DNA from: an uncultured Eggerthellaceae bacterium
GTDB taxonomy: Bacteria > Actinomycetota > Coriobacteriia > Coriobacteriales > Eggerthellaceae
Assembly (NCBI GenBank): GCA_947650915.1
Contig: CANSWY010000003.1
Coordinates: 1 to 64,000, forward strand
Direction: 5' to 3'
DNA length: 64,000 bases
The notes under the pieces were generated by a model, which was given only the letters and a program-made list of their open reading frames with translations, did not search any database and had not been told where the DNA came from. This document shows positions 10,119 through 25,857 of the stretch, one piece after another. How positions within the stretch are numbered: the stretch's first letter is position 1; every line of letters begins with the position of its first letter. A program made the translations under genes and the position numbers.

Positions 10119-10215
10119 ATGTGCAAAAGGGACGTCCCAAATTGCACATAGGATCAGTCTTTCAGTGCGCATGCTCTATTCCTATGTGCGATTTGGAACG
10201 TCCCTTTTGCACATC
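10119..10215. repeat. REP-doublet (REPIN-like) element, copy 1
   Basis: The left arm starts TGTGCAAAAGGGACGTCCCA and reaches GCACATAGG. The linker contains CAGTCTTTCAGTGCGCA. The right arm is the near-exact reverse complement, ending CCCTTTTGCACATC. Each arm has a self-complementary core of the GGGACGTCCC type, so the whole folds as a long hairpin. It lies between the twin palindromes and the flavin oxidoreductase start. Confidence 0.9.
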
Positions 10216-10308: not shown

Positions 10309-12300
10309 ATGAACCGAGACTATCCGAACCTCGCGAAGCCCATCCAGATCGGCGGCCTCACGTTCAGGAACCGCATGGCATCCGCCCCCATGGGCGCCAC
10401 TGACATCCTGGCGGACGGCACTCCTGGCCCGCGCACGCTCGGGTTCTATGAGGCCCGCGCCAAGGGCGGCGCAGCCTCCGTCACGGTGAGCGAACTGGTG
10501 GTGCATCCGGAAACGGACGGATCCCAGATGCTGCATCTCTCCTTGTCCACCCCCGGCCAGCTGGGCGCGTTCGCCTACGTGGCAGACGCCATCAAGCGCC
10601 ACGGCGCCGTGGCGTCCATCGAACTGTCCCATTCCGGCCAGTACGCAGGCACCTACATGGTTGACAAAAAGGCCAAAGGAGAACTTGTCCAATACGGGCC
10701 CAGCGACAGCGAACGTCCAGACGGGCTGCCGGTGCGTGCGCTCACCGAAGAACAGATCGCGCATGTCGTGGAAGCCTATGGCACCGCCGCCGCTCTGGCG
10801 AAGCGGGCAGGGTTCCAGATGTGCATGGTGCACGCGGGTCATGGATGGCTCATCAATCAATTCCTCTCACCCTATTTCAACAAACGAACCGACGGCTATG
10901 GTGGGCCCCTTGAGAATCGTCTGCGCCTGGCTCGGGAGGTGCTGAGCGCTGTGCGCAAGGCTGTGGGTCCGCGTTTCCCTATAGAGTTGCGCATGAGCGG
11001 ATCCGAGCTCTTCCCGGGCGGTTACGATATCGAAGAGGGCTGCCGTATCGCCCAGGCCCTAGAGGACCTGGTGGATATCATCCATGTATCTGCAGGGTCC
11101 TATCAGTTTGGTTTTTCTGTCACTCATCCCTCCATGTTTCGAGAGCATGGATGCAATGTGCACCTGGCGGCGCGCATCAAGCAATGCGTGAGCGTTCCGG
11201 TGGCTGCTGTCGGTGGCCTATCCGATCCAGCTCAGATGGAATCCATTCTCGCCTCTGGCAAGGCGGATATCGTCGCCATGGCTCGCGGGCTTCTGGCTGA
11301 TCCGGAGTTGCCGAACAAGGTCATGGCGAATAGGGGAGATGACGTGGTGAAGTGCGTACGCTGCTTCACCTGCATGGCTGAGCGCCCGGTCACCCAAACG
11401 CGTCGCTGTGCGGTGAACCCGCTCATCGGACGTGAGCTGGAAGGGCTGGAAGTACGCCCGGTCGTATTGCCCCAGCAGAACCTGATCGCAGAGATCGCCC
11501 TTCGAAGGAAGCGCGTGCTGGTGGCAGGTGGAGGCATTGCGGGCATGAAGGCGGCTCATACCGCTGCTCTGCGCGGTCATGATGTGACCCTCTGCGAAGC
11601 GGGGGCGCGTCTGGGTGGTATCTTGAACACCGAAGAAGCGCTGCCCTTCAAGCATGACATGTATGATCTAGCGCGTACCTATGAGCGTCTGTGCGAAGAG
11701 GCGGGCGTGCATATCTGTTTGAACCGAGCTGTTGATGCCGCTTTCTGCGATGCGTTCAAGCCCGATGCCCTCATCATCGCGGTGGGCTCTGATGAGCTTG
11801 GGCTGCCTATGCCCGTAGCAGAGGGCGCGTGGGTGATATCCATCGATGAGCTGTACCTAGAGGACGCTGGCCCCGGTGATGATGTCGTGATCATCGGGGG
11901 CGGCCTCACCGGTTGCGAATGCGCCCTGCTCATGGCTCAGCAGGGCAGGAATGCCCATCTGATCGAGATGGGGCCTGAACTGGCGCCGGATGCGAACATG
12001 CGTCACAGGCCCATTCTCCTGTCTCAGCTTGAAGAAGCAGGGGTGGAGGTGCTGACGGATTCTCGGGCCGAAGCGGTCACCTTGAACGGCGTGAAGGTGG
12101 CGCTTGCGGATGGGAGCGAACGTATGGTTGGTGGCATCGGATCATCCGTGGTGGCTGCCATCGGACGACGCAGCCGCAGCGACGCTGTTGATGCCCTGCG
12201 AGACGGTGCCCCCTTCGTACGCGTGGTGGGAGACGCTTTGCGTCCGGCCAACATCACCTTCGCCATCTACGAGGCCTACCACGCTGCCCTGGACATCTGA
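10309..12300 (+). CDS. FMN/FAD/4Fe-4S NADH:flavin oxidoreductase of the 2,4-dienoyl-CoA reductase/BaiCD family
   Basis: 663 residues from ATG 10309 (GGAATGGAGG upstream). Residues about 1-360 are an Old Yellow Enzyme TIM barrel (PIQIGGLTFRNRMASAPMG; HAGHGWLINQFLSPYFN; RTDGYGGPLENR). A Cys cluster CVRCFTCMAERPVTQTRRC follows and should bind a 4Fe-4S cluster. The C-terminal half has two dinucleotide folds, VLVAGGGIAGMKAA (FAD) and VVIIGGGLTGCECA (NAD). Relatives reduce activated C=C bonds in dienoyl-CoAs, bile acid intermediates or diet and drug enones. The substrate cannot be read from sequence. It stands alone between two REP-like elements, with twin palindromes upstream that may control it. 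Confidence 0.85.
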   Translation: MNRDYPNLAKPIQIGGLTFRNRMASAPMGATDILADGTPGPRTLGFYEARAKGGAASVTVSELVVHPETDGSQMLHLSLSTPGQLGAFAYVADAIKRHGAVASIELSHSGQYAGTYMVDKKAKGELVQYGPSDSERPDGLPVRALTEEQIAHVVEAYGTAAALAKRAGFQMCMVHAGHGWLINQFLSPYFNKRTDGYGGPLENRLRLAREVLSAVRKAVGPRFPIELRMSGSELFPGGYDIEEGCRIAQALEDLVDIIHVSAGSYQFGFSVTHPSMFREHGCNVHLAARIKQCVSVPVAAVGGLSDPAQMESILASGKADIVAMARGLLADPELPNKVMANRGDDVVKCVRCFTCMAERPVTQTRRCAVNPLIGRELEGLEVRPVVLPQQNLIAEIALRRKRVLVAGGGIAGMKAAHTAALRGHDVTLCEAGARLGGILNTEEALPFKHDMYDLARTYERLCEEAGVHICLNRAVDAAFCDAFKPDALIIAVGSDELGLPMPVAEGAWVISIDELYLEDAGPGDDVVIIGGGLTGCECALLMAQQGRNAHLIEMGPELAPDANMRHRPILLSQLEEAGVEVLTDSRAEAVTLNGVKVALADGSERMVGGIGSSVVAAIGRRSRSDAVDALRDGAPFVRVVGDALRPANITFAIYEAYHAALDI

Positions 12301-12513: not shown

Positions 12514-13329
12514 TCAGAGGGGGAGGGTCAGGCCGTCCTTCGCCATTTTCACGCGGCCGCCGTACTGTTCCAGGTACGTCTCCAATTCCGCGCAGGTGAT
12601 GGGTTCGTCATAGTGCATGCACAGATGCGTGAGGTAGATGGTGCCCGCATCCAGCGCCAGGCCCTCTTCGATGCACTCCTGCACCGAATGGTGCGCCTCC
12701 GCGTTCCAGTTCCGCTTCCAGAACGTGGCGTCCATGGCCAGGATGTCCACGCCGCGCACGGCCTCTGTCGTCTCCGGCGGCAAGGGCCCGGTGTCTGACG
12801 CGTAGAACAGGCGTGTGGCGTCCGTCTCCACCAGATACCCGTAGGTGCCCGGCGCATGGGTGACCGGCAGCGCCGTGTAGCGCACCCCGTCGAAGACGTG
12901 CGTCTCGAAGGGCGCGATGCCCTGGAAATCCAGGCACCAGTCCATGTAATGGAACTCCGCCCGGATGCCCGCCTGCGCTTCCGCAGAGGCGAACGCGGGC
13001 AACGGAACCCCCCCGCGCACGAGTCCCACCAGGTACTCGTATTCCCCCAGGCCGCCGATATGGTCGAAGTGGCAGTGGGTGAACAGCACCTCATCCACAT
13101 GATGGACGCCCTCGCGCAGAAGCTGGTGGCGCGCATCCGGCGGCGTGTCGATCACCACCGTGGGCGTTTCCGCTTCGGGAAGCCCGGTCCGGCGCACCAT
13201 GACGCCGCAGTCCCCGCGCGCGAGGGTGGGGTCGGCCCGCGCCTCTTCGCAAGCCGGGCACGTGCAGAAGAACGAGGGCACGCCACAGCCGGCCGCGGTG
13301 CCCATGAACGTGAACAGGTGCTCCTTCAT
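12514..13329 (-). CDS. MBL-fold metallo-hydrolase, PhnP-like
   Basis: 271 residues from ATG at 13329, with AAGGAG upstream on the minus strand. The N-terminus (FMGTAAGCGVPSFFCTCPAC) carries a CxCxxC cluster like the structural zinc site of PhnP. The zinc-hydrolase motif THCHFDHIGGL is at about residues 84-94, later ligands lie in LPVTHAPG and YASDTG, and TYLTHL-type IYLTHL is near the end. PhnP relatives hydrolyse cyclic phosphodiesters; the actual substrate is unknown, since no phn genes are nearby. It is divergent from the molybdoenzyme operon. Confidence 0.8.
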   Translation of the reverse strand: MKEHLFTFMGTAAGCGVPSFFCTCPACEEARADPTLARGDCGVMVRRTGLPEAETPTVVIDTPPDARHQLLREGVHHVDEVLFTHCHFDHIGGLGEYEYLVGLVRGGVPLPAFASAEAQAGIRAEFHYMDWCLDFQGIAPFETHVFDGVRYTALPVTHAPGTYGYLVETDATRLFYASDTGPLPPETTEAVRGVDILAMDATFWKRNWNAEAHHSVQECIEEGLALDAGTIYLTHLCMHYDEPITCAELETYLEQYGGRVKMAKDGLTLPL

Positions 13330-13581: not shown

Positions 13582-16500
13582 ATGGCGGAGATCGATATCC
13601 ACGCAGAGGGAGTCGAGATGGTGAAGTCGCTTTGCTACTTCTGCCATGCGAACTGCGGCGTTCTTGCCTATGTCAAGGACGGGGATGTGATCAAGATCGA
13701 AGGCGATCCTGATTATTCCAGCCAGGGCGGCCTGTGCTGCCGCGGCACCAGCGCCCTTTTGCACGTGAACCACCCGGCCCGCATCAACCATGCGCTCAAG
13801 CGCGTGGGGGAGAAGGGCGAAGGCAAGTGGGAGCAGATTCCCTATGACCAGGCCATCCAAGAAGTGGCTGACAAGCTCAACCAGATCAAGGAAGAGTCTG
13901 GCGCTGAGTACGTGGCATCCGCTGGCGGCACCACGCGCACGGACGACTGGGCGCGCCGCCGCTTCCTGAACCAGTTCGGCACGCCTAACGGCTTCCATAA
14001 CGCGCTTCTGTGCTGGATCCCCACCTTCATGGCGGAGACCTGCGTGGCGGGCTGGTCGCCCTTCGAAACGGACTTGGGCGCTGCGCGCAGCCTGATCCTC
14101 TGGGGCATGAACCCGGGCGCTTCCACCCTGGGCGGCATGCACGGCTACACCGATCTGCAGATGGCCGGCCTCAAGATCATCGTGGTGGATCCGCGCTACT
14201 CTGAAACCGCTGCGAAGGCGGATCTCTGGCTTCCGCTGCGCCCCGGCTCTGACGCGGCGCTGGCCATGGCCATGCTGCACACGCTCATCTTCGAAGGCCT
14301 CTACGACGTGGAATTCGTCACGAAGTGGTGCGACGGCTTCGAAGAGCTCATGGGCCACATGGCGGATTATTCTCCGGAGTGGGCTTCTGAGATCACCTGG
14401 CTGGAGCCGGATCAGATCCGCAACGCCGCTCGCATGTACGCCATGAACAAGCCCGGCTGCATCCAGTGGGGCTGCACGTGGGACCAGAACGGCTCCACGT
14501 CCACTACGGCCAGCCACGCGCTGGCGCTCTGCCGCGCCATCTGCGGCAACCTGGACGTTCCCGGTGGCGACGGCATGCCGGGCCCGGCGCTCAACTTCCT
14601 CACGGACGAAGAGATGGAAGCCAACGAGTGCCTGCCGGAGGAGATGAAGTCCAAGCAGATCGGCTCCGACAAGTTCAAGCTCACCAGTTGGCCGGGCTAT
14701 CAGAAAATCTCTGATAACGCCATGCGCAAGTGGGGCAAGACGCTCCCGGTGGAGTGGTTCTGCGAGGCCCACGGGCCGTCCGTGTTCAAGGCCATCCTCA
14801 CCGGAGACCCGTACAAGGTGCGCGCGCTCATCTGCAACGCCACCAACCCCGTGAACTCTTATGGTGATGCGAAGATGGTCCTGGCGGCGCTCAAGGAAGT
14901 GGAGTTCTTGGTCACCGTCGATTACTGGATGACGCCGACGGCGCTCTTCTCTGACTACGTCTTCCCGGCGGCCGGCGCGCTGGAGCGTCCCACCATCATC
15001 ACCCACTATGGCGCCACGGACTCCCTCATGGCGGGCCGTCGCGCCATCCAGCCGAAGTACGATCGTCATACGGACATGGTGTTCTGGCGCAAGCTGGGCC
15101 TGGCCTGCGGCCAGGATCCGGAGATGTGGCCGTGGGAGACCGAAGAGGAAGCCTACTGGCACATCATGGAGGGCATCGGGCTGCCCATCGACAACTACAA
15201 TGATTTCGTCGACATGGTGCGCATGTACTACCCGCCGCTGCACCAGACGAAGTACGAACAGAACGGCGGCTTCTGGACGCCGTCCGGCAAGGTGGAGTGC
15301 AACTCCTCCATCCTGCGCGAACTGGGATACTCCGGCATGCCCATCTATACCGGCATGGCCGAATCCGAACTGACCACGCCGGAAGTGGCTGCGGAATATC
15401 CCATCGTGCTCACCACCGGCGGCGGCTTCATGCCGTACCACCACTCTGAGCACTTCAACATGCAGGCCATCCGTTACCTGTACCCCGATCCGTACTTCTT
15501 CATCAACCCGCATCTGGCGGAGGATCTGGGCATCGAACAGGGTGACTGGTGCTGGATCGAGACGCGCCGCGGCCGCATCAAGATGCGCGCGAACGTGGAG
15601 CCCATCGTGGATCCGCGCGTGGTCATGTGCCCGCGCGGTTGGTGGTTCCCCGAACGCGATGGCTCGGCTGACCTGGACAACCCGTTCGGCTGCCTGGAGT
15701 CCAACGTCAACACCTTGACCTGCGTGGACGATCCTGACTGCGATCCCATGGGCGGTTCGTGGAACAACCGCGGCCTCATGTGCAAGGTCTACAAGTGCGG
15801 TGAGATCGATTCCAAGTTCACCGCTGAGGATGCGCAGTTCTCTATCCCGGGCAACGCGCCCACGCCGGGCATCCACATGAAGCCCTCTGAGATGAAGCTC
15901 TGCCGTGAGCCCATCCCGTTCGAGGAGCCGCAGCCCACGCGCGAAGTTCCGGAAGGATATGTGTGGACGTGGCAGGATGACCAGATCTATCAGAAGGGCA
16001 CGGGTTTCCGTCTGGACGAGTCCGGCTGGCTGGTGGACCCGAAGGACAAGAGCTACGTGGATTCCTACACGGGCTGGCGCTATGATGCCAACATGGATTG
16101 CCTGGTGGATGTGAGCACCGGCAAGAAGTACACCATGGACCGTGAAGAGATCATCGAAGTGGCCGGCATCCGCACCTATCCTGGTCAGGATGCGCCCTAT
16201 GAGATCACCGGCCAGGCGCTGGTGTGGGACAAGGAGAAGGGCTATGCCACGCTGGCCGGCAAGGCGGGCGAAGGCAAGATCTTCAACCCTGACACCCAGT
16301 GGGTCATCGGCATTGAGGACAACGTCTACTACGACCAGCACCGCGGGTACGCCTACGATCCCACGGAGAACAACCTGGTGGATATGGAGACGGGCCTTCG
16401 CTACACCATGAACTATGAACAGATCACCGGCAATGAGGAGCTGCCCGTGAACGAGGCCGCCATCGAGGCTGAGGCGAGCACCGATGCTGCGGCTGCGGAC

Positions 16501-16623
16501 GCTGCGCAGGCTGAGGTGGATGCGGCTGCGGCCACGGCGGCGGACGCGGGCGATGAGGCGCTGGCCCAAGAGCTGGCTGAGGCCTCATCAGATCCGGCTG
16601 CGGTGAATGAGGAGGTCAAATAA
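13582..16623 (+). CDS. Molybdopterin oxidoreductase (DMSO reductase family), catalytic subunit with unusual C-terminal extension
   Basis: 1013 residues from ATG 13582 (GAGGAAGG upstream). The N-terminal 4Fe-4S ligands are C18, C21, C25 and C52 or C53 (CYFCHANCGV; GGLCCRGT). The molybdopterin domains follow (WGMNPG; VVDPRYSET; LPLRPGSDAAL). Cys144 in NALLCWIPTF is the likely Mo ligand by alignment position. The dinucleotide-binding C-terminal domain ends near residue 775. The next ~150 residues hold a Tyr/Trp/Gly-rich repeated region and the last ~55 are Ala/Glu/Asp-rich. There is no Tat signal, even in the longest upstream reading, so the enzyme should stay in the cytoplasm. With the next two genes it forms a PsrABC-like complex exchanging electrons with the quinone pool. 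The substrate is unknown. Confidence 0.88.
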   Translation: MAEIDIHAEGVEMVKSLCYFCHANCGVLAYVKDGDVIKIEGDPDYSSQGGLCCRGTSALLHVNHPARINHALKRVGEKGEGKWEQIPYDQAIQEVADKLNQIKEESGAEYVASAGGTTRTDDWARRRFLNQFGTPNGFHNALLCWIPTFMAETCVAGWSPFETDLGAARSLILWGMNPGASTLGGMHGYTDLQMAGLKIIVVDPRYSETAAKADLWLPLRPGSDAALAMAMLHTLIFEGLYDVEFVTKWCDGFEELMGHMADYSPEWASEITWLEPDQIRNAARMYAMNKPGCIQWGCTWDQNGSTSTTASHALALCRAICGNLDVPGGDGMPGPALNFLTDEEMEANECLPEEMKSKQIGSDKFKLTSWPGYQKISDNAMRKWGKTLPVEWFCEAHGPSVFKAILTGDPYKVRALICNATNPVNSYGDAKMVLAALKEVEFLVTVDYWMTPTALFSDYVFPAAGALERPTIITHYGATDSLMAGRRAIQPKYDRHTDMVFWRKLGLACGQDPEMWPWETEEEAYWHIMEGIGLPIDNYNDFVDMVRMYYPPLHQTKYEQNGGFWTPSGKVECNSSILRELGYSGMPIYTGMAESELTTPEVAAEYPIVLTTGGGFMPYHHSEHFNMQAIRYLYPDPYFFINPHLAEDLGIEQGDWCWIETRRGRIKMRANVEPIVDPRVVMCPRGWWFPERDGSADLDNPFGCLESNVNTLTCVDDPDCDPMGGSWNNRGLMCKVYKCGEIDSKFTAEDAQFSIPGNAPTPGIHMKPSEMKLCREPIPFEEPQPTREVPEGYVWTWQDDQIYQKGTGFRLDESGWLVDPKDKSYVDSYTGWRYDANMDCLVDVSTGKKYTMDREEIIEVAGIRTYPGQDAPYEITGQALVWDKEKGYATLAGKAGEGKIFNPDTQWVIGIEDNVYYDQHRGYAYDPTENNLVDMETGLRYTMNYEQITGNEELPVNEAAIEAEASTDAAAADAAQAEVDAAAATAADAGDEALAQELAEASSDPAAVNEEVK

Positions 16624-17202
16624 ATGACGAGATATTGCATGGTCATCGATCAGCGTCGCTGCATCGGCTGCCATTCATGCACGGTGGCTTGCCGCACGTG
16701 GAACGATCTTCCGATGGACATCGTGTACAACCCGGTGCTCACCGAAGGCGTGCAGGGAGAGTGGCCCAACGTCCATCGCAATTGGACGCCCACCCTCTGC
16801 ATGCACTGCGAGAAGCCGGCCTGCGTGCCCTGCTGCCCCACCGGTGCCAGCCAGCAGGATGCTGATGGCACCGTCTGGATCGAATACGACAAGTGCATGG
16901 CCTGTCTGGCCTGCGTGAACGCCTGCCCCTATGGCATGCGCGATCAGAGCAAGATGCAGCCGCATCTGCACCGTTTCGTCCGCAAGTGCACGTTCTGCCG
17001 TGACAAGCGTGAGATGGATCCGGACGCCCAGCCCTACTGCGTGCTTACCTGCCATCAGAAGGCGCGCATCTTCGGGGATCTGGACGATCCGAACTCCGAG
17101 GTGTCCAAGCTCGTGAATTCCGTTGAGACCGTGCGTCTTTTGGAGGACATGGGCACCGGCCCGCAGATCTACTACATCCCTGATCTTGGAGGTACCCGAT
17201 GA
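16624..17202 (+). CDS. Four-cluster 4Fe-4S ferredoxin subunit (PsrB/DmsB-like)
   Basis: 192 residues. Four Cys groups are visible: CIGCHSCTVAC (residues 13-23), CMHCEKPACVPCCP, CMACLACVNACP and the C-terminal CTFCRDKR/CVLTCHQKA set, the pattern of electron-transfer subunits carrying four cubane clusters. It moves electrons between the molybdoenzyme and the NrfD-type membrane subunit. It starts right after the molybdoenzyme stop (TAA ATG) and its stop overlaps the next gene by 4 bases, so the three genes are one tightly coupled operon. Confidence 0.92.
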   Translation: MTRYCMVIDQRRCIGCHSCTVACRTWNDLPMDIVYNPVLTEGVQGEWPNVHRNWTPTLCMHCEKPACVPCCPTGASQQDADGTVWIEYDKCMACLACVNACPYGMRDQSKMQPHLHRFVRKCTFCRDKREMDPDAQPYCVLTCHQKARIFGDLDDPNSEVSKLVNSVETVRLLEDMGTGPQIYYIPDLGGTR

Positions 17203-18200
17203 GAAGACACTTCTGGAAATGGCCGATCCCCACGTATCTGTTCCTGGGCGGCCTGGGCGGCGGCATCTTCTGCCTCATCGCCGTGCTGTCTCTGTGCGTC
17301 TACCCCACGGTGGAGGCGGTGCCTGCGGCCATGGCATGGCCGGGCTTCTTGGCCATCGTGGCGCTGGGCTTCGGCTGCCTGATGCTGGTGGCCGACCTGG
17401 GCCAGCCCATGGTGTTCTATCGCGCGTTCGTGAAGTCCACCAGCGTGCTGGCTTGGGGCGCCCGTCTGCTCACGGTCTGCATGATCTTCGGACTGCTGTG
17501 GTTCGTGAGCTACATCCCCTGGGAGTGGTTCCTGCCCGTGGCTGATTTCTTCGTGCCGTTCCGCGCGTTCAATCTGGCCATCGCGGGCGTGGCGGGCACC
17601 TGCATCATGCTGTATACCGGCATCTTCCTGTCCACGCTGAAGGCGCACGCCTTCTGGGCCACGCCGGCGCTGCCGGTGCTGTTCACCGTCTCCGCGCTCT
17701 CCACGGCCTGCGCTGCCATCTCGCTGTCCGCGGGCTGGTGGCCGGCACCGCAGGGCATTTACTCTGAATCGGCTCTGCTGAACCTGCTGGCTGCTGAAGT
17801 GGTGCATGAGATGGTGCACATCGTGGACGTCATCCTGGTGGTGTGCGAGATCGTGGTCCTCTTGGTCATGGTGCTCTCCTTCCTGGGCGCTGGCAACAAG
17901 ACGGCGAACCGCGTGGCGCACAAGTGGGTGCACGGCTCTTACGCCTTCGCGTTCTGGGGCGGCATGATCGCCATGGGCCTGGTCATCCCGGAATTGCTCT
18001 ACATCGGTCTGCCGCACACCGTGGGCTCCACGGTCATCGCGCCCATCCTGGTGCTCTGTGGCGGCCTCTTGCTCCGCTTCATGGTGGTCAACTCTGATGA
18101 GCGCGCGCCGCTGCCCGGCGAGGATCTGTACTTCAAGAAGCTCCCGCCGAAGGACGCTGAATTCATCACCAAATGGACCTACGGTGAGAACCTGTTCTAA
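17199..18200 (+). CDS. NrfD/PsrC-type polytopic membrane subunit
   Basis: 333 residues with about eight hydrophobic spans, starting MRRHFWKWPIPTYLFLGGLGGG, the typical NrfD opening. The family anchors FeS/molybdoenzyme complexes and carries the quinone site. The stop-start overlap with the ferredoxin gene places it as the membrane anchor of the 13.6-18.2 kb complex. The loop VVHEMVHIVD contains two His residues within the membrane region. An intrinsic terminator follows the stop. Confidence 0.9.
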   Translation: MRRHFWKWPIPTYLFLGGLGGGIFCLIAVLSLCVYPTVEAVPAAMAWPGFLAIVALGFGCLMLVADLGQPMVFYRAFVKSTSVLAWGARLLTVCMIFGLLWFVSYIPWEWFLPVADFFVPFRAFNLAIAGVAGTCIMLYTGIFLSTLKAHAFWATPALPVLFTVSALSTACAAISLSAGWWPAPQGIYSESALLNLLAAEVVHEMVHIVDVILVVCEIVVLLVMVLSFLGAGNKTANRVAHKWVHGSYAFAFWGGMIAMGLVIPELLYIGLPHTVGSTVIAPILVLCGGLLLRFMVVNSDERAPLPGEDLYFKKLPPKDAEFITKWTYGENLF

Positions 18201-18218: not shown

Positions 18219-18252
18219 GAACACCCCGCCCAGCGCGGGGTGTTCTTTTTTT
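18219..18252 (+). terminator. Intrinsic terminator of the molybdoenzyme-NrfD operon
   Basis: An 11-bp stem (18219-18229 with 18235-18245) with a 5-base loop is followed by a long T-run. It starts 18 bases after the NrfD stop. Confidence 0.92.
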
Positions 18253-18335: not shown

Positions 18336-18420
18336 AGCGCACGTGAGGGACAGGCCCCAAAAAAGCATCAGCGCGAACGCGAACGGCCTCGGCTCATCCA
18401 TGCCCCCTGTTCGCTGTCGC

Positions 18421-18558
18421 CATGTGCAAAAGGGACGTCCCAAATTGCACATAGGAATGGTCTTTCCTCACAGATGCTCTTTTTCTATGTGCGATTTGGA
18501 ACGTCCCTTTTACACATGGGAGGTCGTGCGTGCAATTTGGGACGTCCCTTTTGCATAT
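18421..18558. repeat. REP-like element copy 3, with an extra half unit
   Basis: A complete doublet: left arm TGTGCAAAAGGGACGTCCCA, linker with TGGTCTTTCCTCACAGATGC, right arm ending CCCTTTTACACATG near 18519. A further right half unit (GCAATTTGGGACGTCCCTTT) ends at 18558. Confidence 0.9.
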
Positions 18559-18580
18559 GGGGGGGCTTTCTGCGCGCTCC

Positions 18581-18610
18581 TTGCGCCTCCTGCTGGCCTC
18601 ACCGTATAAT
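18581..18610 (+). promoter_or_regulatory. Promoter of the HdrB-like/molybdoenzyme operon
   Basis: TTGCGC (18581-18586) and TATAAT (18605-18610) are separated by 18 bases, about 43 bases before the first start codon. Confidence 0.6.
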
Positions 18611-18652: not shown

Positions 18653-19594
18653 ATGGCTGACTGCACGTTCACGGATGCGCTGACCGGGGACATCATCGGG
18701 TTCGACTACGCCACGGGCAGCGTTGAGGTCGATCGCAGCTCTGCGGGACACGTGGATGAGGCATGCACGTCGCTCTTCTTCCCGGGTTGCTCGTTCATCA
18801 ACTACGCCATGCCGCTGGTGCCGGCGGTCCATGACCTGTTGCACAAGGCGGGCGCGGTGGATGGCATCTCCATACTCTGTTGCGGCAAGATCCTCTCCTA
18901 TGAGGAGGACGGCGCGCAGGTGCGCGAGGCTTTCGAATGCCAGCTGCGCGACCACATCGCCCTCATGCAGCCGGAGCGCATCGTCTGCGCGTGCCCGAAT
19001 TGCGTGCGTGCGCTGCGGGAGGCGCTCAGCCTGGATTCACGGACGAAGGACGTGCAGCTGGTAGCGCTCCCTGAGGTGCTGGCGGATCTGGGCTATCGGC
19101 TTGATGCGCAGACCTGCGCGCGCATGATCAAAGGAAGCGTTGATGCGCCCGTGCTGCTCTGTCCGCACGATTCGTGCCCTGACCGTGAATGGGGAGCGTT
19201 CGCGGACGGGTTGCGCGCGCTCTTGCCAGAAGGGTGCTGGCAGGACCCGGAACACTGCCGCAACCGTTCGGTCTGCTGCGGGTCTCTCCCGCGCGCCGCG
19301 GGCAAGACGGCCCAAGCGGACAAGTGCGCGCATCTCTGCGGCCAGGAATCGGAAGCGGTGGGAGCCGATGCCATCGTCTGCGCCTGCATGAGCTGCACGT
19401 TCCAGCTGAACATGGCGCAGCCGTATCTGCAGTGCGTGCACTATCTGGAACTCCTCTTCAGTTGGCGCATAGATTGGTCCCGGGTGGGCGCGTGGATGAA
19501 GCTGCGCTTCCTTTTCGAGGACACGCCGGGGCAAGCCACGGAGAGCGGCCGTTCGTTCGACGGCCTCACCAACGCGGTAAAGGAGCAGCAGTGA
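18653..19594 (+). CDS. CCG-domain FeS protein, heterodisulfide reductase subunit B-like
   Basis: 313 residues from ATG 18653 (GGGGAGGTGGG upstream). Two Cys-rich units are visible: FFPGCSF, LCCGKIL and CACPNCV in the first half, then CPHDSCPD, CCGSLPR and CACMSCTF in the second. This repeated CCG arrangement is that of HdrB/GlpC/LutA-type proteins, which bind unusual FeS clusters and pass electrons or act on thiols. There is no membrane segment or signal. Its stop overlaps the start of the second molybdoenzyme by one base, so it is probably that enzyme's electron partner. The actual partner and substrate are unknown. Confidence 0.8.
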   Translation: MADCTFTDALTGDIIGFDYATGSVEVDRSSAGHVDEACTSLFFPGCSFINYAMPLVPAVHDLLHKAGAVDGISILCCGKILSYEEDGAQVREAFECQLRDHIALMQPERIVCACPNCVRALREALSLDSRTKDVQLVALPEVLADLGYRLDAQTCARMIKGSVDAPVLLCPHDSCPDREWGAFADGLRALLPEGCWQDPEHCRNRSVCCGSLPRAAGKTAQADKCAHLCGQESEAVGADAIVCACMSCTFQLNMAQPYLQCVHYLELLFSWRIDWSRVGAWMKLRFLFEDTPGQATESGRSFDGLTNAVKEQQ

Positions 19595-21852
19595 TGGCAG
19601 AGGCGCGCAAGACCAACTGCCATTTCTGCGGGTATCTCTGTGGTTTCACGGCCCAGGTGGAGGATGGCCGCATCACTGCCTTGAAACCGGATCCTGAGCG
19701 TTACCCCTACGACGAGCAGGTGCTCAACGGATGCCAGCGCTGGCGCATGAACCTGGACGTGCTGGATGGCGCTGATCGCGTGAACCATCCGCTCAAGCGG
19801 GTGGGAGAGCGCGGCAGCGGACAGTGGGAGCGCGTGAGCTGGGAAGCGGCGTTGGATGACATCGCGGACAAGCTGATGGCATTGCGCGTAGAGCACAACT
19901 CCGGCGTGGTGGCTTCTATGATCGGCGGCCCGCACACCTCGTTCTGGCCGCTGCACCGCTTCATGTCGTTGTTCGGTTCGCCCAACAATGCGGGCATCGG
20001 GCAGATCTGCTGGAATCCGCGCATCTGGTCCGATGTGTTGGCCTACGGTTGGACCATCGAACCGGACATCACGGAAGACACGAACTGTCTCATCATCTGG
20101 GGAACGGATCCGGCCGAATCGGACAACTCGGTCTTTTGGCGCAGCCTTCTCAGGATGCACAAGGCAGGACGTCCGAAACTGGTGGTCATAGATCCGCGCC
20201 TCACGAAGACGGCGCGCATCGCCGATGTGTGGGTGCCCTTGCTGCCTGGCACGGACAGCACGTTCGCGCTGGGGCTGTTGAATGTGATCATCAATGAGGG
20301 GCTCTCTGATGCCGCGTTCGTGGAGCGCTGGTGCATAGGCTTCGAAGAGCTGGCGGCTCATGTGGCGCCCTACGCACCAGAGGCGGTGGCGGGCGTCTGC
20401 GGAATCCCGGCGGATGTGGTGCGGGAGGTTGCGCGCGCTTTCGCGCAGAGGCCTTCCACCATCATCACCGGACGCGGGATCGACCAGGTGGGGGAGAACG
20501 TGCTGCCCACCCATCGGGCGCGCACGGCGCTCTTGGCCATCTGCGGGAACCTGGACCGCCCTGGCGGCAGCTCGCTTCTCCAGACCAGCGATTTCATCTC
20601 AGAGTTGGACCTGGAATGCACGCTGGATAACTGGGAGGTCCTTGCAGATCTGAGCCTGAACACGGGCCATACGCCGCTCCAGAGCTATGCCGGGTATGCG
20701 CACGTGAAGGAGAGCATGGACGCCGACGGCCGGCGCTTGCCCGCGCGCTATCTCACCAGCGTGCATCCTGATCTTCTGCTGCGCGCCATGGAGGGCGCGG
20801 GGCCCTATCCCATCCGCGCTGTCATCGTGGAGGCCACGAACCCCTTGGTCACCTATGCGGACACGCACCGCATGCTGGCGGCGCTTTCAGGACTGGATCT
20901 GCTGGTGGTGCTGGATTACTACGTGACGCCCACGGCGGCGCTGGCGGATTACGTGCTGCCCGCGGCCGGTGCCATGGAGCGCGCCACGTTCCAGGCCCAT
21001 GGCGGGGTGGCGAACTTCGTCTACGGCGGCGCGAAAGCGGTGGAACCCTACCATGAGCGCAAGGCGGACTACGAAGTGTTCCGTGAGCTGGGCATCCGCT
21101 GTGGCCAGGCGGAGCACTGGCCGGACGCCACCTTCGAAGAGGCCTGCGAACGGACGCTGGCGCCCACGGGCCTTGACTGGGACGGCTACTGCCAGATGGG
21201 CATGTACGCCATGCCGAACCCGCCTTTCAAGCACGAACAGCTGGACGAGGATGGCAGCCCGCGCGGGTTCGCCACGCCTTCCGGCAAGGTGGAGCTGGCG
21301 AGCGCGTACCTGGATTCCCTGGGCGGCGGCGCATTGCCGGCGCCGGGGAGCAGCTATCGCCTTTGTTCTGATGAGTTCATCCAGGATCGCCAGGCGGAAG
21401 GCTGGACGCATCTCACGCTGATCACCGGCGGGCGGCGCCAGCCCTACAACGCGTCCATGTATCTGAACCATCCGCCCTTCCGCGCGCAGCGTCCGCTCCC
21501 TTTGGCGGAGGTCAGCCAGGCCACGGCTGATATGCTGGGGGCGGCCCCGGGAGATGTGGTCACGCTGGCCACGGACAAAGGGGAGGCCCGGTTCGTCCTG
21601 GATGTGATCCGGATGGCCGACGGCGTCATCCATGCTGACTACGGCTGGTGGCATCCGGAAGGCCCGGTGCAGGCACCGGATTTCGGCGGCATCTTCGAGA
21701 GCAACGTGAACGTGCTCACCAGCTGCAGCTTGGAGGGGGCGGAGCCCCTGATCGGCACCTGGGCCTACAACGACATGGATTGCATGGTGCGCGCGGGCGG
21801 GGAGGCGCTCACGTTCGGTAGCCCCATTGAAAAGCAGGCTGCGCCCGCTTGA
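19594..21852 (+). CDS. Second molybdopterin oxidoreductase (DMSO reductase family)
   Basis: 752 residues. 4Fe-4S ligands are C9, C12, C16 and C47 (CHFCGYLCGF; NGCQRW). The core reads as MopB: LIIWGTDPAES, VVIDPRLTKTA, WVPLLPGTDS, then GRGIDQVGENV. C139 in GQICWNPR occupies the same place as C144 of the first molybdoenzyme, so Cys is the probable Mo/W ligand. No Tat signal is present, so it is cytoplasmic. It is about 260 residues shorter than the first enzyme, mainly because it lacks the C-terminal extension. The context (HdrB-like protein, ferredoxin, no NrfD) suggests soluble electron transfer rather than a quinone-linked role. The substrate is unknown. Confidence 0.87.
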   Translation: MAEARKTNCHFCGYLCGFTAQVEDGRITALKPDPERYPYDEQVLNGCQRWRMNLDVLDGADRVNHPLKRVGERGSGQWERVSWEAALDDIADKLMALRVEHNSGVVASMIGGPHTSFWPLHRFMSLFGSPNNAGIGQICWNPRIWSDVLAYGWTIEPDITEDTNCLIIWGTDPAESDNSVFWRSLLRMHKAGRPKLVVIDPRLTKTARIADVWVPLLPGTDSTFALGLLNVIINEGLSDAAFVERWCIGFEELAAHVAPYAPEAVAGVCGIPADVVREVARAFAQRPSTIITGRGIDQVGENVLPTHRARTALLAICGNLDRPGGSSLLQTSDFISELDLECTLDNWEVLADLSLNTGHTPLQSYAGYAHVKESMDADGRRLPARYLTSVHPDLLLRAMEGAGPYPIRAVIVEATNPLVTYADTHRMLAALSGLDLLVVLDYYVTPTAALADYVLPAAGAMERATFQAHGGVANFVYGGAKAVEPYHERKADYEVFRELGIRCGQAEHWPDATFEEACERTLAPTGLDWDGYCQMGMYAMPNPPFKHEQLDEDGSPRGFATPSGKVELASAYLDSLGGGALPAPGSSYRLCSDEFIQDRQAEGWTHLTLITGGRRQPYNASMYLNHPPFRAQRPLPLAEVSQATADMLGAAPGDVVTLATDKGEARFVLDVIRMADGVIHADYGWWHPEGPVQAPDFGGIFESNVNVLTSCSLEGAEPLIGTWAYNDMDCMVRAGGEALTFGSPIEKQAAPA

Positions 21853-21876
21853 GGCGGCCTTGAGAAGGAGGAGAAG

Positions 21877-22740
21877 ATGGCAGAGAGAAAGCAAGCGCTC
21901 TTGGTGTTCAGCAAGCCGCCCATCCCGGGCATGGTGAAGACGCGCCTCACTCAGAAACACGGCGGCTTCATGACGGATGAGCAGGCGGCGGAGTTCTTCA
22001 AGCTGTGCCTGTACGATGTGTGCGAACTGTCCATGCATGCGCTGATAGAGATGCAGCGTGAGAACGACGCGCTGGTGGCGGCTGATCCGTCTGCTGACAA
22101 GATCACCTATGACTTCTTCGTGTCCACCACGCCGGCGGAGAACCTGGAGCTGATGCGCCAGACCTTCGACGCCATCGGGCCGTGGCCCATGGAGATCCAC
22201 TACATGACGGATGCCGGTCCCACGTTCGATGACCACTTCGATGACGCCATCGCGCAGATCTTCGCCCAAGGCTATGAGCATATCGTGGCTATCAGCGGAG
22301 ACATCCCCACGCTGCCGAAATCGCACCTGAAGCAGGCGTTCCAGTGGCTGGATTACTTCCATGCCACGGGCAAGCCCGGCTTCGTCATGGCGCCGTGCCA
22401 GGAATGCGGCACGTCGCTGATCGGGCAGTCCTTCGACACGCCCATCGACAATCAAGGCGTGTACTACAACATGGACGGCGTGCCGGCGCTGGACGGCTAC
22501 ATGGTCAAGATAGAGGAGAAGGACATCCCGGTGGCGTACTTCTCGCCGGTGGCCGACATCGACGAGGCCACGGACCTGGCCCACGCCATCTCCTGTATGA
22601 AGGCCATCAAGAAGGCTGCTGAGATGCAGCAGGACCTGTTCGTGCCGAACCGCGTGCTGCTCTGGTGCGACATGATGGGCATCCAGGTGTCCACGCCGCC
22701 CAATGAAGAACACGATCCCCGGCAATATATAGATCAGTGA
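21877..22740 (+). CDS. DUF2064 nucleotide-diphospho-sugar-transferase-like protein
   Basis: 287 residues from ATG 21877 with GAAGGAGGAG upstream. The N-terminus LLVFSKPPIPGMVKTRLTQK is the signature of the DUF2064/CofC-like GT-A fold, and ISGDIPTLP is the expected metal-binding/donor region. Members sit beside radical SAM genes in several genomes and are thought to transfer nucleotidyl or sugar groups, but their substrates are mostly unproven. It is 24 bases after the molybdoenzyme and 3 bases before the radical SAM gene, so it is probably co-translated. A role in building a cofactor, or a lipid or sugar head group, is inference. Confidence 0.75.
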   Translation: MAERKQALLVFSKPPIPGMVKTRLTQKHGGFMTDEQAAEFFKLCLYDVCELSMHALIEMQRENDALVAADPSADKITYDFFVSTTPAENLELMRQTFDAIGPWPMEIHYMTDAGPTFDDHFDDAIAQIFAQGYEHIVAISGDIPTLPKSHLKQAFQWLDYFHATGKPGFVMAPCQECGTSLIGQSFDTPIDNQGVYYNMDGVPALDGYMVKIEEKDIPVAYFSPVADIDEATDLAHAISCMKAIKKAAEMQQDLFVPNRVLLWCDMMGIQVSTPPNEEHDPRQYIDQ

Positions 22741-22743
22741 TCT

Positions 22744-24069
22744 ATGAACGAGGAGGCATTGTTGTTAGCCCGGATCCACTTGCATGACACGGGGGCGCTC
22801 TGCCCGGATTGCTTGCGCGAACTGCCCGCAGAGGTGTATGCGGACGCAGAGGGCGTGGTCTGGATGGAACGCACCTGTCCCGAACACGGGATGCTGGCCA
22901 CGCGCATGTGGCCGGATGCCAGCCATTACCAATGGTTGCGATCTGAGGCGTTCCCGAAGACGCGTCCGCAGAACACCATCCCGGCGAGGGCGGCGTGCCC
23001 CTTCGGTTGCGGCACCTGCGCGCGCCATGAGCGGCGCGGCACGCTCCTGGAGATAGAGGTCACGCGCAACTGCAACCTGCATTGCCCGGTCTGCTTCGCC
23101 TCTGCTGAGAACGGAGAAGACGATCCGTCCCTGGAAGAGATCCGCGCCATGTACCAGGTCATCGCGGACGCGGTTGGAACGGACGGCGCTGTGCAGCTCA
23201 CGGGGGGAGAGCCCACCTGCCGGAAAGACCTCAAGGACATCATCTACCTGGGCCGCCAGATGGGCTTCTGGGGCATCGAGGTGAACACGAACGGCCTGGT
23301 CATCGCGAACAAGCCAGGGTATCTGGAAGATCTGGTGGGCGCGGGCCTCACCGGCGTGTACCTTTCCTTTGACGGCCTCACGCCTGAGGCGTATGAGGCC
23401 ACGTGCGGACGGGACATCCTGGATGTGAAGCTGCGCGCCATCGAACGCTGCCGGGAATGCGGCATCCAGGTGGTGCTCTCCGTGGCCGTGGTGGCCGGCG
23501 TGAATGATGGGCAGCTGGGTGACCTTCTGCGGTTCGCTCTGAAGAATTCGGATGTGGTGGCGGGCTTGGCGCTCCAGCCGGCGTTCACCTCCGGCCGTTT
23601 CGAGGCGCACCGTGTGATCCCCATGTCTTCAGGGGATGTCATCTTCGGCCTGTGCGAACAGTCCGAAGGGCTGCTGGATGTCCGGGATGTGTGGCCACTG
23701 GGCTGTTCGCACCCGTTGTGCGACACGGGCGTGTTTCTGCTGAGATCAGCGGATGCGCCGCATGAGAGCGGCTTCGTGCCAGCCACGCGCCTCATGTCCA
23801 TGGAAGAGTACGCCGAAGGCTACAGCCCGGATTCGCCCCAGGGGTCCGTCTTTTTGGACATCCTGCACAAGAAGGGCATGCCGGTCTCTGACGGCCTTTC
23901 TGTCATCGTCATGAACTACATGGACGCCTACAGCATGGACACCGAACGCCTCAGGGATTGCTCCATGATGGTCTGCGTGCCGGACGGCCGCGCCATTCCG
24001 TTCTGTTCATACCACCTGACGGACAGCGCGGGCAAGCGCATCTACGCCCCCTGGTGCAAAGAGCTCTAG
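22744..24069 (+). CDS. Radical SAM protein with Cys-rich N-terminal domain (Tes/MJ0619-like)
   Basis: 441 residues. The radical SAM cluster motif is CNLHCPVC (C110, C114, C117), followed by QLTGGEPTCRKDL and the SAM-site strand EVNTNGLVI. Before it lie two further Cys groups: C20/C23 and C45 (CPDC; TCPEHG) and C85/C89/C92 (CPFGCGTC), a layout like that of the archaeal tetraether synthase/MJ0619 group and related bacterial proteins. Cys residues near the C-terminus (CSMMVCVPDG; FCSYH) could bind auxiliary clusters. The chemistry is unknown. Its tight link to DUF2064 and a molybdoenzyme suggests modification of a cofactor, lipid or sulfur-bearing metabolite. Confidence 0.8.
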   Translation: MNEEALLLARIHLHDTGALCPDCLRELPAEVYADAEGVVWMERTCPEHGMLATRMWPDASHYQWLRSEAFPKTRPQNTIPARAACPFGCGTCARHERRGTLLEIEVTRNCNLHCPVCFASAENGEDDPSLEEIRAMYQVIADAVGTDGAVQLTGGEPTCRKDLKDIIYLGRQMGFWGIEVNTNGLVIANKPGYLEDLVGAGLTGVYLSFDGLTPEAYEATCGRDILDVKLRAIERCRECGIQVVLSVAVVAGVNDGQLGDLLRFALKNSDVVAGLALQPAFTSGRFEAHRVIPMSSGDVIFGLCEQSEGLLDVRDVWPLGCSHPLCDTGVFLLRSADAPHESGFVPATRLMSMEEYAEGYSPDSPQGSVFLDILHKKGMPVSDGLSVIVMNYMDAYSMDTERLRDCSMMVCVPDGRAIPFCSYHLTDSAGKRIYAPWCKEL

Positions 24070-24148
24070 GCGCTTCGTGATGCAGGCCCGTGCCGTGCGC
24101 CTCTACCGCAATGCCCGTACCGTGAAACTCGTACTGAATGTTGCGTAG

Positions 24149-24167
24149 CGCAGGCTTCAGCCTGCGA
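24149..24167. other. Small hairpin between the radical SAM and ferredoxin-DUF169 genes
   Basis: GCGCAGGCTTCAGCCTGCG forms an 8-bp stem without a T-run, so it is probably not a terminator; it may mark mRNA processing. The 136-base gap holds nothing else clear. Confidence 0.35.
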
Positions 24168-24205
24168 AGCGACCAAGAGGAACCAGGTGACAAAGGAAGG
24201 ACCCT

Positions 24206-25183
24206 ATGGCTGAATACCAGATCACGAACCACCCGGACCGTTGTGTGAAATGCGGCCTGTGCGTGGCGTTCTGCCCCATCCCGAACGTCCTGGAGGTGGG
24301 ACCTGAGGGGTATCCTCAGGTGGTGGACGCCGAACCCTGCGTGGGCTGTCAGACCTGTTCCGGCAACTGTCCGCGCCGCGCGCTCACGGTGGAGGCCACG
24401 GGAGACGCCGTCTACGACCCGTTCGCGGATGAGCCGCGGGCAGAGCCCATCCCGTTTGAACGTCAGCAGCATCTGGCAAAGTTGCAGCGCTCCATCATGG
24501 ACAGCCTGGGGCTGCGGTGGCAGCCGGTGGCCGTGGGGTTGATCGGCGCGGATGAGCCGCTGCCGGATGCGCCCATCCCGTCTGAGAACCTGCGCTTCTG
24601 CCAGGCCATGATGGCGGCCCGCCGCGGCGCATCCATCCTGCAGCCGCCGCATCGCCATTCGTGCCCGGACGGCACGTCCATCTTCGGTATGACCGGAGTC
24701 CCGGAGAAGCTGGCCACGGGAGAGATCTACGTGCTCTTCCACAAGGTGGTGGACGCGGAGGCGGCGGCGCGCATGGTGGCCGAACGCCCCACGCTGCCGC
24801 CGAAGAGCCGCCGGGCCACCTACGTGGCGCCGCTGGCGAAGACGGTGCGCGAGCCGGACGTGGTGGTGTTCACGGGCACGCCGGAGCAGATGATGTGGCT
24901 CTGCATGTCCATGAGCTACTACGACGGCCACCGCTTCGATTTCGCAGCCAGCGGCTTCAACTCCATGTGCGTGGAGGCGGTCTTGCTGCCGTTGGAGAAG
25001 GATGAGCCCAACATCACGTTCGGCTGCTATGGCTGCCGCGCGGCCTCTGACATAGGCGAGGACATGATGTTCATGGGCGTGCCCACGGACCGCCTGGAGA
25101 CCATCGCACAGGGCGCAGCGGAACTGGCGAAGAAGGCCATCCCGGATTCGCGCAACAAGATCTACGTCGAACCCATCATGTAG
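24206..25183 (+). CDS. Ferredoxin-DUF169 fusion protein
   Basis: 325 residues from ATG 24206 with AAAGGAAGG upstream. The N-terminal ~65 residues are a two-cluster ferredoxin (CVKCGLCVAFCPIP, then CVGCQTCSGNCPR). The remainder is DUF169-like: DSLGLRWQPVAVGLI, FCQAMMAARRGAS, YVAPLAKTVREPDVVVFTG and FGCYGCRAASD. DUF169 is common in anaerobes and archaea but has no assigned reaction. As the last full member of the 18.65-25.2 kb run, it could deliver electrons to the radical SAM protein or the molybdoenzyme. The 136-base gap before it may mean a separate transcript. Confidence 0.75.
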   Translation: MAEYQITNHPDRCVKCGLCVAFCPIPNVLEVGPEGYPQVVDAEPCVGCQTCSGNCPRRALTVEATGDAVYDPFADEPRAEPIPFERQQHLAKLQRSIMDSLGLRWQPVAVGLIGADEPLPDAPIPSENLRFCQAMMAARRGASILQPPHRHSCPDGTSIFGMTGVPEKLATGEIYVLFHKVVDAEAAARMVAERPTLPPKSRRATYVAPLAKTVREPDVVVFTGTPEQMMWLCMSMSYYDGHRFDFAASGFNSMCVEAVLLPLEKDEPNITFGCYGCRAASDIGEDMMFMGVPTDRLETIAQGAAELAKKAIPDSRNKIYVEPIM

Positions 25184-25188
25184 CCCCC

Positions 25189-25632
25189 ATGGATGCGCTC
25201 TTCACTTTACGTCCCGCCCGGGAAGCCGACCGGCCGTACCTCAACGCGTACTGCTACGGGGAGGGGATGGACAACCTGCCATCCTTGCAGGACGTCACCG
25301 TGGCGCAGAACGCGGACGGCGAGCCGGTGGGATTCATCCGGCTGGCGCTGGGCGCCAACGGGGCGTGGCACGTGAACCCGGTAGTGGTGCACGCCTCCTG
25401 GCGCGGTCATGGTGTCGGTCAGGCGCTCACGGAATGGGCGCTCACGGAGAAGGGGGAGCTGCGCCTGGTGGCGCGCGGGCAGGCCGTGCCGTTCTACGAG
25501 CGCTTGGGCTTCGTGCCCTGCTCCTGGGAGGACGTGGACACCGCCGTCACCGAAGAGTGCGACGGCTGCCCTTTGGCAGCAGAGTGCCACCCCAAGCCCA
25601 TGTGCAAAAGACACATCCCAGATCGCCCCTGA
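25189..25632 (+). CDS. GNAT-family N-acetyltransferase
   Basis: 147 residues. The acetyl-CoA fold is visible as LRPAREADRPYLNAY, VGFIRLALGANG, VNPVVVHASWRGHGVGQAL (the Q/RxxGxG/A site) and AVPFYERLGF. A Cys set CDGCPLAAEC follows. The final residues (MCKRHIPDRP) and the stop are encoded by a decayed copy of the dispersed repeat, so the ancestral C-terminus was probably different. It starts 5 bases after the DUF169 gene, so it is likely co-transcribed with it. The acceptor substrate is unknown. Confidence 0.78.
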   Translation: MDALFTLRPAREADRPYLNAYCYGEGMDNLPSLQDVTVAQNADGEPVGFIRLALGANGAWHVNPVVVHASWRGHGVGQALTEWALTEKGELRLVARGQAVPFYERLGFVPCSWEDVDTAVTEECDGCPLAAECHPKPMCKRHIPDRP

Positions 25633-25846
25633 ATGTGCAAAAGGGACGTCCCAAATCGCACCTGCAACGGATGAATGTGCAAAAGGGACGTTCCAAATCG
25701 CATATAGGAAAAGAGAACCAGCACTGAAAGACTGTTCCTATGTGCAATTTGGGACGTCCCTTTTGCACATCCCGCATCGTTCATCCTATGTGCGGTTTGG
25801 GACGTCCCTTTTGCACATCAAGCGGATGTCCCTTTTGCATATTCAG
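25603..25846. repeat. REP-like element copy 4, composite, with central doublet inverted
   Basis: Five or more half units lie in tandem: a decayed one inside the GNAT 3' end, GTGCAAAAGGGACGTCCCAA at 25634, a doublet whose linker reads GCACTGAAAGACTGTTCC (the reverse complement of the linker in copies 1, 2 and 8), another right arm ending near 25818, and a truncated one to 25846. It lies between convergent genes. Confidence 0.9.
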
Positions 25847-25857
25847 GGACGCGGCCC

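Follow-up and report, generated by a model that had tools for sequence, protein, structure and literature searches.

A conserved gene island with two molybdopterin/tungstopterin enzymes, an NrfC/NrfD pair, a long DUF2064 protein and a ferredoxin-DUF169 fusion in Eggerthellaceae and distant anaerobes

Gene content and layout of the island

The window (the whole stretch of DNA analyzed, 64,000 nucleotides) carries an island of about 11 neighboring genes extending from position 12514 to position 25632. It starts with a minus-strand gene encoding a PhnP-like MBL-fold metallo-hydrolase (MBL; 12514–13329, 271 aa) with an HCHFDH zinc motif and a CxCxxC motif; all the remaining genes lie on the plus strand. 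The next three encode a molybdopterin/tungstopterin (Mo/W) enzyme resembling acetylene hydratase and PsrA, hereafter upMoly (13582–16623, 1013 aa), which would be the catalytic subunit of a three-part complex, an NrfC-like [4Fe-4S] electron-transfer subunit (16624–17202), and an NrfD-type membrane anchor (17199–18200), quinone-linked by family. After a gap, the gene order continues with an HdrB-like protein in which both CCG motifs are complete (18653–19594; Pfam CCG), a second Mo/W enzyme, Moly2 (19594–21852, 752 aa; Pfam Molybdopterin and Molydop_binding), a DUF2064 GT-A nucleotidyltransferase-like enzyme (21877–22740, 287 aa; Pfam DUF2064), a radical SAM enzyme of the Tes/TrsS superfamily (rSAM; 22744–24069; Pfam Radical_SAM and HMPTM zinc ribbon), a fusion of a 2x[4Fe-4S] ferredoxin with DUF169 (24206–25183; Pfam Fer4 and DUF169), and a GNAT acetyltransferase with a cysteine-rich tail (25189–25632). 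An OYE/BaiCD-like Fe–S flavoenzyme of 663 aa (10309–12300, plus strand), a homolog of which adjoins MBL in four Bacillota islands, perhaps belongs to the island as well, its membership being uncertain.

The initial annotation had delimited a system of five genes, from HdrB to ferredoxin-DUF169. These five open reading frames are intact, the family assignments of all five proteins hold in Pfam, and the spacing is exactly as described, with a 1-base overlap followed by gaps of 24 and 3 bases and then 136 bases before ferredoxin-DUF169. The boundary itself was drawn too narrowly, leaving out GNAT, MBL, the upMoly–NrfC–NrfD trio, and perhaps OYE. In particular, the statement that the system has no NrfD anchor is misleading, since an NrfD gene (17199–18200) lies on the same strand only 452 bases upstream, preceded by genes for NrfC and a further molybdoenzyme, and the conserved neighborhood includes this trio. 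The idea of a purely soluble pathway finds no support, because a Psr-type NrfC/NrfD complex belongs to the system. The reported lack of a Tat signal was confirmed, the twin-arginine motif being absent from every one of the proteins, and on this basis upMoly and Moly2 are predicted to be cytoplasmic.

In this genome, the trio and the five-gene block likely form two transcripts, because a strong terminator-like hairpin (18219–18245, plus strand; 11 pairs followed by seven T), which is probably the end of the trio transcript, and copies of a dispersed palindromic repeat (18420–18560) separate them. With the repeat inserted, the NrfD–HdrB gap measures 452 bases here versus 53 to 300 in most relatives. 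The single promoter formerly proposed at 18581–18610 was not borne out: a perfect TATAAT is present at 18605, but the −35 element TTGCGC (18581) matches at only three of six positions, and a sigma-70 scan of the region returned one site, against 1.6 expected by chance, located elsewhere.

The repeat, which stands outside the system, is REP-like (AAAAGGGACGTCCCAAATTGCA) and occurs in the window at 10125, 18420–18560, and 25600–25851. Allowing up to three mismatches, it has 524 + 517 matches in the 1.98-Mb genome, or about one per 1.9 kb, against 0 for a control. Among the 137 family genomes searched, the second member of the genus has none and two others have only 7–10; the burst is seen in one species.

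Conservation within the family and across phyla

Across 138 genomes of the family, rSAM was detected in 64 (26 of the 48 genera), ferredoxin-DUF169 in 62, and upMoly in 56. The presence of rSAM and of ferredoxin-DUF169 agrees in all but four of the 138 genomes (Fisher p = 2.6e-34), and rSAM and upMoly are likewise associated (p = 2.4e-23); these tests ignore shared ancestry, and the cross-phylum data described below argue against shared ancestry as the whole cause. Several exceptions correspond to incomplete assemblies, while four genomes (G324, G325, G341, and G414) represent a real variant without the upMoly–NrfC–NrfD trio. The order MBL, upMoly–NrfC–NrfD–HdrB–Moly2–DUF2064–rSAM–ferredoxin-DUF169–GNAT persists from genus to genus, frequently with HdrCB, another HdrB-like protein, after it, and MBL is divergent and adjoins upMoly in nine of the related loci. 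In some genomes ferredoxin-DUF169 lies apart from the island, either on another contig (G377) or about 8 kb away (Gordonibacter pamelaeae). Unlinked genes in relatives would have refuted the initial annotation; instead, at least 26 genera of the family show both linkage and co-occurrence. One genus (g6) includes genomes with and without the island. A plasmid origin was considered and discarded, there being no match in 72,556 plasmids.

Linkage in distant anaerobes, which the initial annotation had named as support for a joint function, was also observed: it is found in other families of Coriobacteriia, in Bacillota, in Desulfuromonas and Geobacter, and in other metagenome-assembled genomes (MAGs). 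A scan of species-representative genomes with the rSAM alignment recovered members at 44–59% identity from Peptococcaceae, another Clostridia MAG, a Selenomonadales MAG, Desulfuromonas, Geobacter, another 'Deltaproteobacteria' MAG, and Dehalococcoidia, below which identity drops to 38%, the level of archaeal Tes and bacterial TrsS-like proteins. Many of the loci analyzed belong to MAGs, and gene calls in the fetched loci are rough. At distant loci of sufficient length, rSAM adjoins Moly2, mostly after upMoly–NrfC–NrfD, and upMoly is 56–62% identical in the Peptococcaceae, Selenomonadales, and Desulfuromonas MAGs. DUF2064 and ferredoxin-DUF169, mostly adjacent or close to each other, are present in all ten non-Coriobacteriia genomes with rSAM, for which completeness data are lacking, compared with a rate of 17 in 299 Bacillota for DUF169 at E ≤ 1e-20. 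GNAT, HdrCB, and MBL are also found in several of the ten. One 33-kb contig (G696) carries GNAT–DUF2064–RpoN–HdrCB–ferredoxin-DUF169–MBL–ABC transporter–APH–upMoly–NrfC–NrfD–rSAM–Moly2, while in the Dehalococcoidia MAG the rSAM–Moly2 and DUF2064–DUF169 pairs are on two short contigs.

Among the 299 Bacillota genomes, nine encode a ferredoxin-DUF169 at E ≤ 1e-80, two of which (G695 and G701) were known before, leaving seven new carriers. The island lies beside ferredoxin-DUF169 in all seven, each time with DUF2064 and MBL, the latter adjoining DUF169 in Bacillota; HdrCB and upMoly are present in six, the exception (G746) being a short contig. For five of the seven islands, rSAM and Moly2 were not in the stretch read, while G827 and G746 have both. 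One weaker DUF169 carrier of the same draw (G909) has no such island near its DUF169 gene. Linkage of the five genes is thus kept far beyond chance. The conserved core consists of upMoly–NrfC–NrfD, GNAT, DUF2064, HdrB or HdrCB, ferredoxin-DUF169, and MBL, and rSAM–Moly2 is a linked optional pair which, because it is missing from five of the seven Bacillota islands, is ruled out as the pathway's core. Gene fusions also join members of this core, namely GNAT–HdrCB (L065) and GNAT–MBL (L117).

Additional genes accompany some islands. A YnjB-type ABC importer lies inside the Peptococcaceae MAG island and beside five Eggerthellaceae islands, an APH kinase occurs in three Bacillota loci, and a PAS/sigma-54 activator in one (L157); none of the three accompanies every island, and all are absent from this window. 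In G827 (MoeA, MobB, MoaC, and MOSC) and in L157 (MoeA, MoaA, and MoaC), Moly2 is immediately followed by molybdenum cofactor (Moco) genes. The G827 island further holds a full trigger-factor gene (L265:18573–19862) between APH and a second HdrCB.

Closest relatives of the encoded proteins

For both Mo/W enzymes, the closest PDB entry is the acetylene hydratase of Pelobacter acetylenicus (2E7Z; E = 9e-104 and 1e-86). Identity with acetylene hydratase was rejected, as the alignments show that the position of its Asp13, after the second cluster cysteine, is occupied by His in upMoly and by Gly in Moly2; unlike acetylene hydratase and the gut catechol dehydroxylases (PMC7028382), the island enzymes accompany NrfCD, HdrB, rSAM, and DUF2064. 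The [4Fe-4S] cysteines and the putative metal-ligand Cys139 of Moly2 are invariant in 27 sequences, and the cluster cysteines and putative metal-ligand cysteine of upMoly are kept in nearly all sequences, some of which are fragments. The island shares with Psr/Phs-type molybdoenzymes the order catalytic subunit–NrfC–NrfD (13582–18200) and the Cys at the metal-ligand position, and upMoly obtains PhsA-like profile scores. It differs from them in a catalytic subunit that is closer to acetylene hydratase and lacks a Tat motif, which would leave the active site in the cytoplasm, and in about eight extra partner genes. The upMoly C-terminus (window 15800–16620) is longer by about 250 residues, which contain W/Y/G repeats and a sub-threshold OCRE match, and this extension is absent from the Bacillota proteins (~746 aa). 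In HdrB, both C...CC...CxxC motifs are present (C46, C76–77, C114, and C117; C175, C208–209, C245, and C248), with all ten cysteines invariant across 18 loci.

The only close solved relative of the rSAM is Tes (7TOL; profile match, E = 2e-119), with which it shares the radical SAM core and the N-terminal zinc-ribbon-like and auxiliary-cluster cysteines. The profile alignment to 7TOL indicated that the Tes cysteine ligands of the radical SAM and auxiliary clusters are kept, and they are conserved in the rSAM alignment; the cysteine of alignment column 316 falls beyond the blocks aligned to 7TOL, and its pairing was made by eye. Unlike Tes, the island enzyme has other genomic partners, scores 301 bits against the Tes model NF045702, under its curated cut-off of 450, and forms its own clade (support 99, together with the paralogs of the L062 type described below), apart from archaeal Tes (100) and from TrsS, in a tree made by a quick method with SH-aLRT support only.

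The Trs cassette (TrsS, NF045663, and DVU_1551–1556) likewise combines a related rSAM with an HdrB-like partner (NF045663), a molybdoenzyme, and a GT-A nucleotidyltransferase. It alone has a xanthine-oxidase-type aldehyde oxidoreductase, a methyltransferase, an AMP ligase, and a C-GCAxxG-C-C protein. Membership in this system was rejected, given a score of 348 bits against TrsS NF045646, under its curated cut-off of 490, the separate clade, and the missing cassette partners: the DVU_1556 methyltransferase, the DVU_1553 ligase, the DVU_1555 protein, and the aldehyde oxidoreductase are all absent from the window island and present in a Desulfuromonas locus (L193). The Trs cassette of that locus, comprising the NF045668 aldehyde oxidoreductase, NF045663, DVU_1556, DVU_1555, TrsS, DVU_1553, XdhC, DVU_1551, a CobC-like protein, and ModE, is an uncharacterized sister system.

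The DUF2064 protein keeps the FxKxPxPGxVKTRL and GDxP motifs and DxD-like residues. Its structural model (pLDDT 94) has 3CGX as its first match, followed by the F420 guanylyltransferases 7P97, 6BWG, and 2I5E, so that it is predicted to fold like guanylyltransferases of the F420 pathway, with CofC/FbiD the nearest folds of known function. CofC/FbiD, the arsenosugar glycosyltransferase family TIGR04282, and 3CGX have the fold and the PGxVKTRL and GDxP motifs in common with the island protein, which differs in its length (287 aa versus about 200) and in scoring below both curated cut-offs (25 bits versus 105 for CofC TIGR03552; 60.5 versus 134 for TIGR04282). No F420 or arsenosugar genes were recognized in the island, and MobA-like genes exist besides DUF2064 (L115). 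The DUF169 part of the fusion has four conserved cysteines; the model of the whole protein (pLDDT 90) gave credible Foldseek and VIA matches that cover the ferredoxin part only, and the lack of a PDB match for the DUF169 part should not be read as a sign of a new fold. MBL scores 104.6 bits against PhnP, whose cut-off is 272.

Candidate pathway and alternative readings

The island genes almost certainly constitute one functional unit. In our preferred reading, which we hold tentatively, they could quite well encode a quinone-linked Mo/W pathway of the cytoplasm, with a small molecule handled by DUF2064, GNAT, and MBL and optional radical steps added by rSAM–Moly2. Judging from the families involved, upMoly would carry out a hydration, dehydroxylation, or oxido-reduction of a small organic molecule on the cytoplasmic side, NrfC/NrfD would pass electrons to or from menaquinone, and HdrB/HdrCB and ferredoxin-DUF169 may carry thiol/disulfide or low-potential electrons. 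DUF2064 (by CofC/FbiD-like nucleotidyl transfer), GNAT (by acetyl transfer), and MBL (by PhnP-like hydrolysis of an ester or cyclic phosphate) might activate, protect, and release the molecule. In islands that have it, the rSAM could generate a carbon radical on its auxiliary [4Fe-4S] cluster, Tes being described to act with a substrate carbon bound to that cluster (PMC11186832), and so join or alkylate an unactivated carbon, and Moly2 could process the product. The YnjB-type importer, the APH kinase, and the PAS/sigma-54 activator favor the use of an imported compound, while the Moco genes beside Bacillota islands would also agree with the making of a cofactor. Dissimilation of an imported compound seems somewhat more likely than cofactor biosynthesis for upMoly and Moly2. 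Points against the preferred reading are that the importer, kinase, and regulator accompany only some islands, that ferredoxin-DUF169 lies apart in some genomes, and that the G324-type variant lacks the upMoly–NrfC–NrfD trio.

That DUF2064, rSAM, MBL, GNAT, and ferredoxin-DUF169 jointly produce a cofactor for both Mo/W enzymes, be it a modified pyranopterin or another one, is rather unlikely. A cyclic-phosphate hydrolase, a nucleotidyltransferase, and a carbon-alkylating rSAM would suit a molybdenum cofactor variant, and the likeness of DUF2064 to CofC/FbiD guanylyltransferases and of MBL to PhnP, the Moco genes in G827 and L157, and the sister Trs cassette, which likewise joins a molybdoenzyme, a nucleotidyltransferase, and a related rSAM, all speak for it. 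However, Moco genes commonly sit by molybdoenzymes, rSAM–Moly2 is optional while upMoly and DUF2064 stay, and DUF2064 would not be the standard dinucleotide step because MobA-like genes are present as well. Quite improbable is the respiration of an inorganic or simple acceptor by upMoly–NrfC–NrfD as a cytoplasmic reductase, the other genes serving repair, detoxification, or regulation: the Psr-type order, the PhsA-like scores, and the provenance of the carriers from anaerobic groups agree with it, but it leaves the nucleotidyl-, acetyl-, and radical enzymes without an obvious role, and the active site would face the cytoplasm because there is no Tat signal.

For the rSAM as a bacterial Tes making membrane-spanning or otherwise coupled lipids, Tes being its only close solved relative, the prospects are very poor in view of its separation from the archaeal Tes clade, its score of 301 bits versus a cut-off of 450, its constant Mo/W partner, and the existence of the rest of the island without it. 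That unrelated redox genes merely lie near each other in a molybdoenzyme-rich region is scarcely conceivable. Many Eggerthellaceae genomes hold large numbers of molybdoenzymes (first-look candidates) and gene calls are rough, but cross-phylum synteny at dozens of loci, the co-occurrence statistics, the fusions, and the blind Bacillota draw contradict it.

Returning to the preferred quinone-linked pathway, it is conceivable, if on balance doubtful, that the island represents an undescribed anaerobic pathway of several phyla uniting a cytoplasmic, quinone-linked W/Mo enzyme, a nucleotidylated small molecule (as substrate or cofactor source), and a third Tes-type rSAM subfamily forming a C–C or C–alkyl bond beside a second W/Mo enzyme. 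The claim of an undescribed system stands as far as the literature searched shows, in which no text links these families or describes the system. A nitrate-fitness screen in Desulfovibrio (PMC4001038) and a table of Slackia selenium genes (PMC5322559) each include a DUF169 gene, and TIGR04282 flanks an iodate-reduction island (PMC8801600), none of which is decisive. DUF169, the long DUF2064, the new Tes-like rSAM clade, and two acetylene-hydratase-like enzymes are here tied into one conserved unit, carried by anaerobes of the gut, rumen, and sediment, Gordonibacter pamelaeae and Adlercreutzia among them; the unit as a whole is now open to testing, which could assign functions at once to several families whose role is unknown or unproven.

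Two sets of paralogs were seen besides the island. A second DUF2064 paralog, 34–40% identical (L108; G000:C1:9684–10517), is found in most island genomes and almost none without; as a second pathway locus in Coriobacteriia it was rejected, its neighbors not being conserved (in G000, HtpG, an amino-acid ABC transporter, and HtrA). Adlercreutzia-like genomes have a paralogous locus (L062 and L063; also L165) with a molybdoenzyme, an AAA ATPase, HdrCB, a Tes/TrsS-like rSAM, a B12-binding rSAM, and proteins resembling NuoE, NuoF, and trigger factor, but no DUF2064; it looks like another undescribed set.
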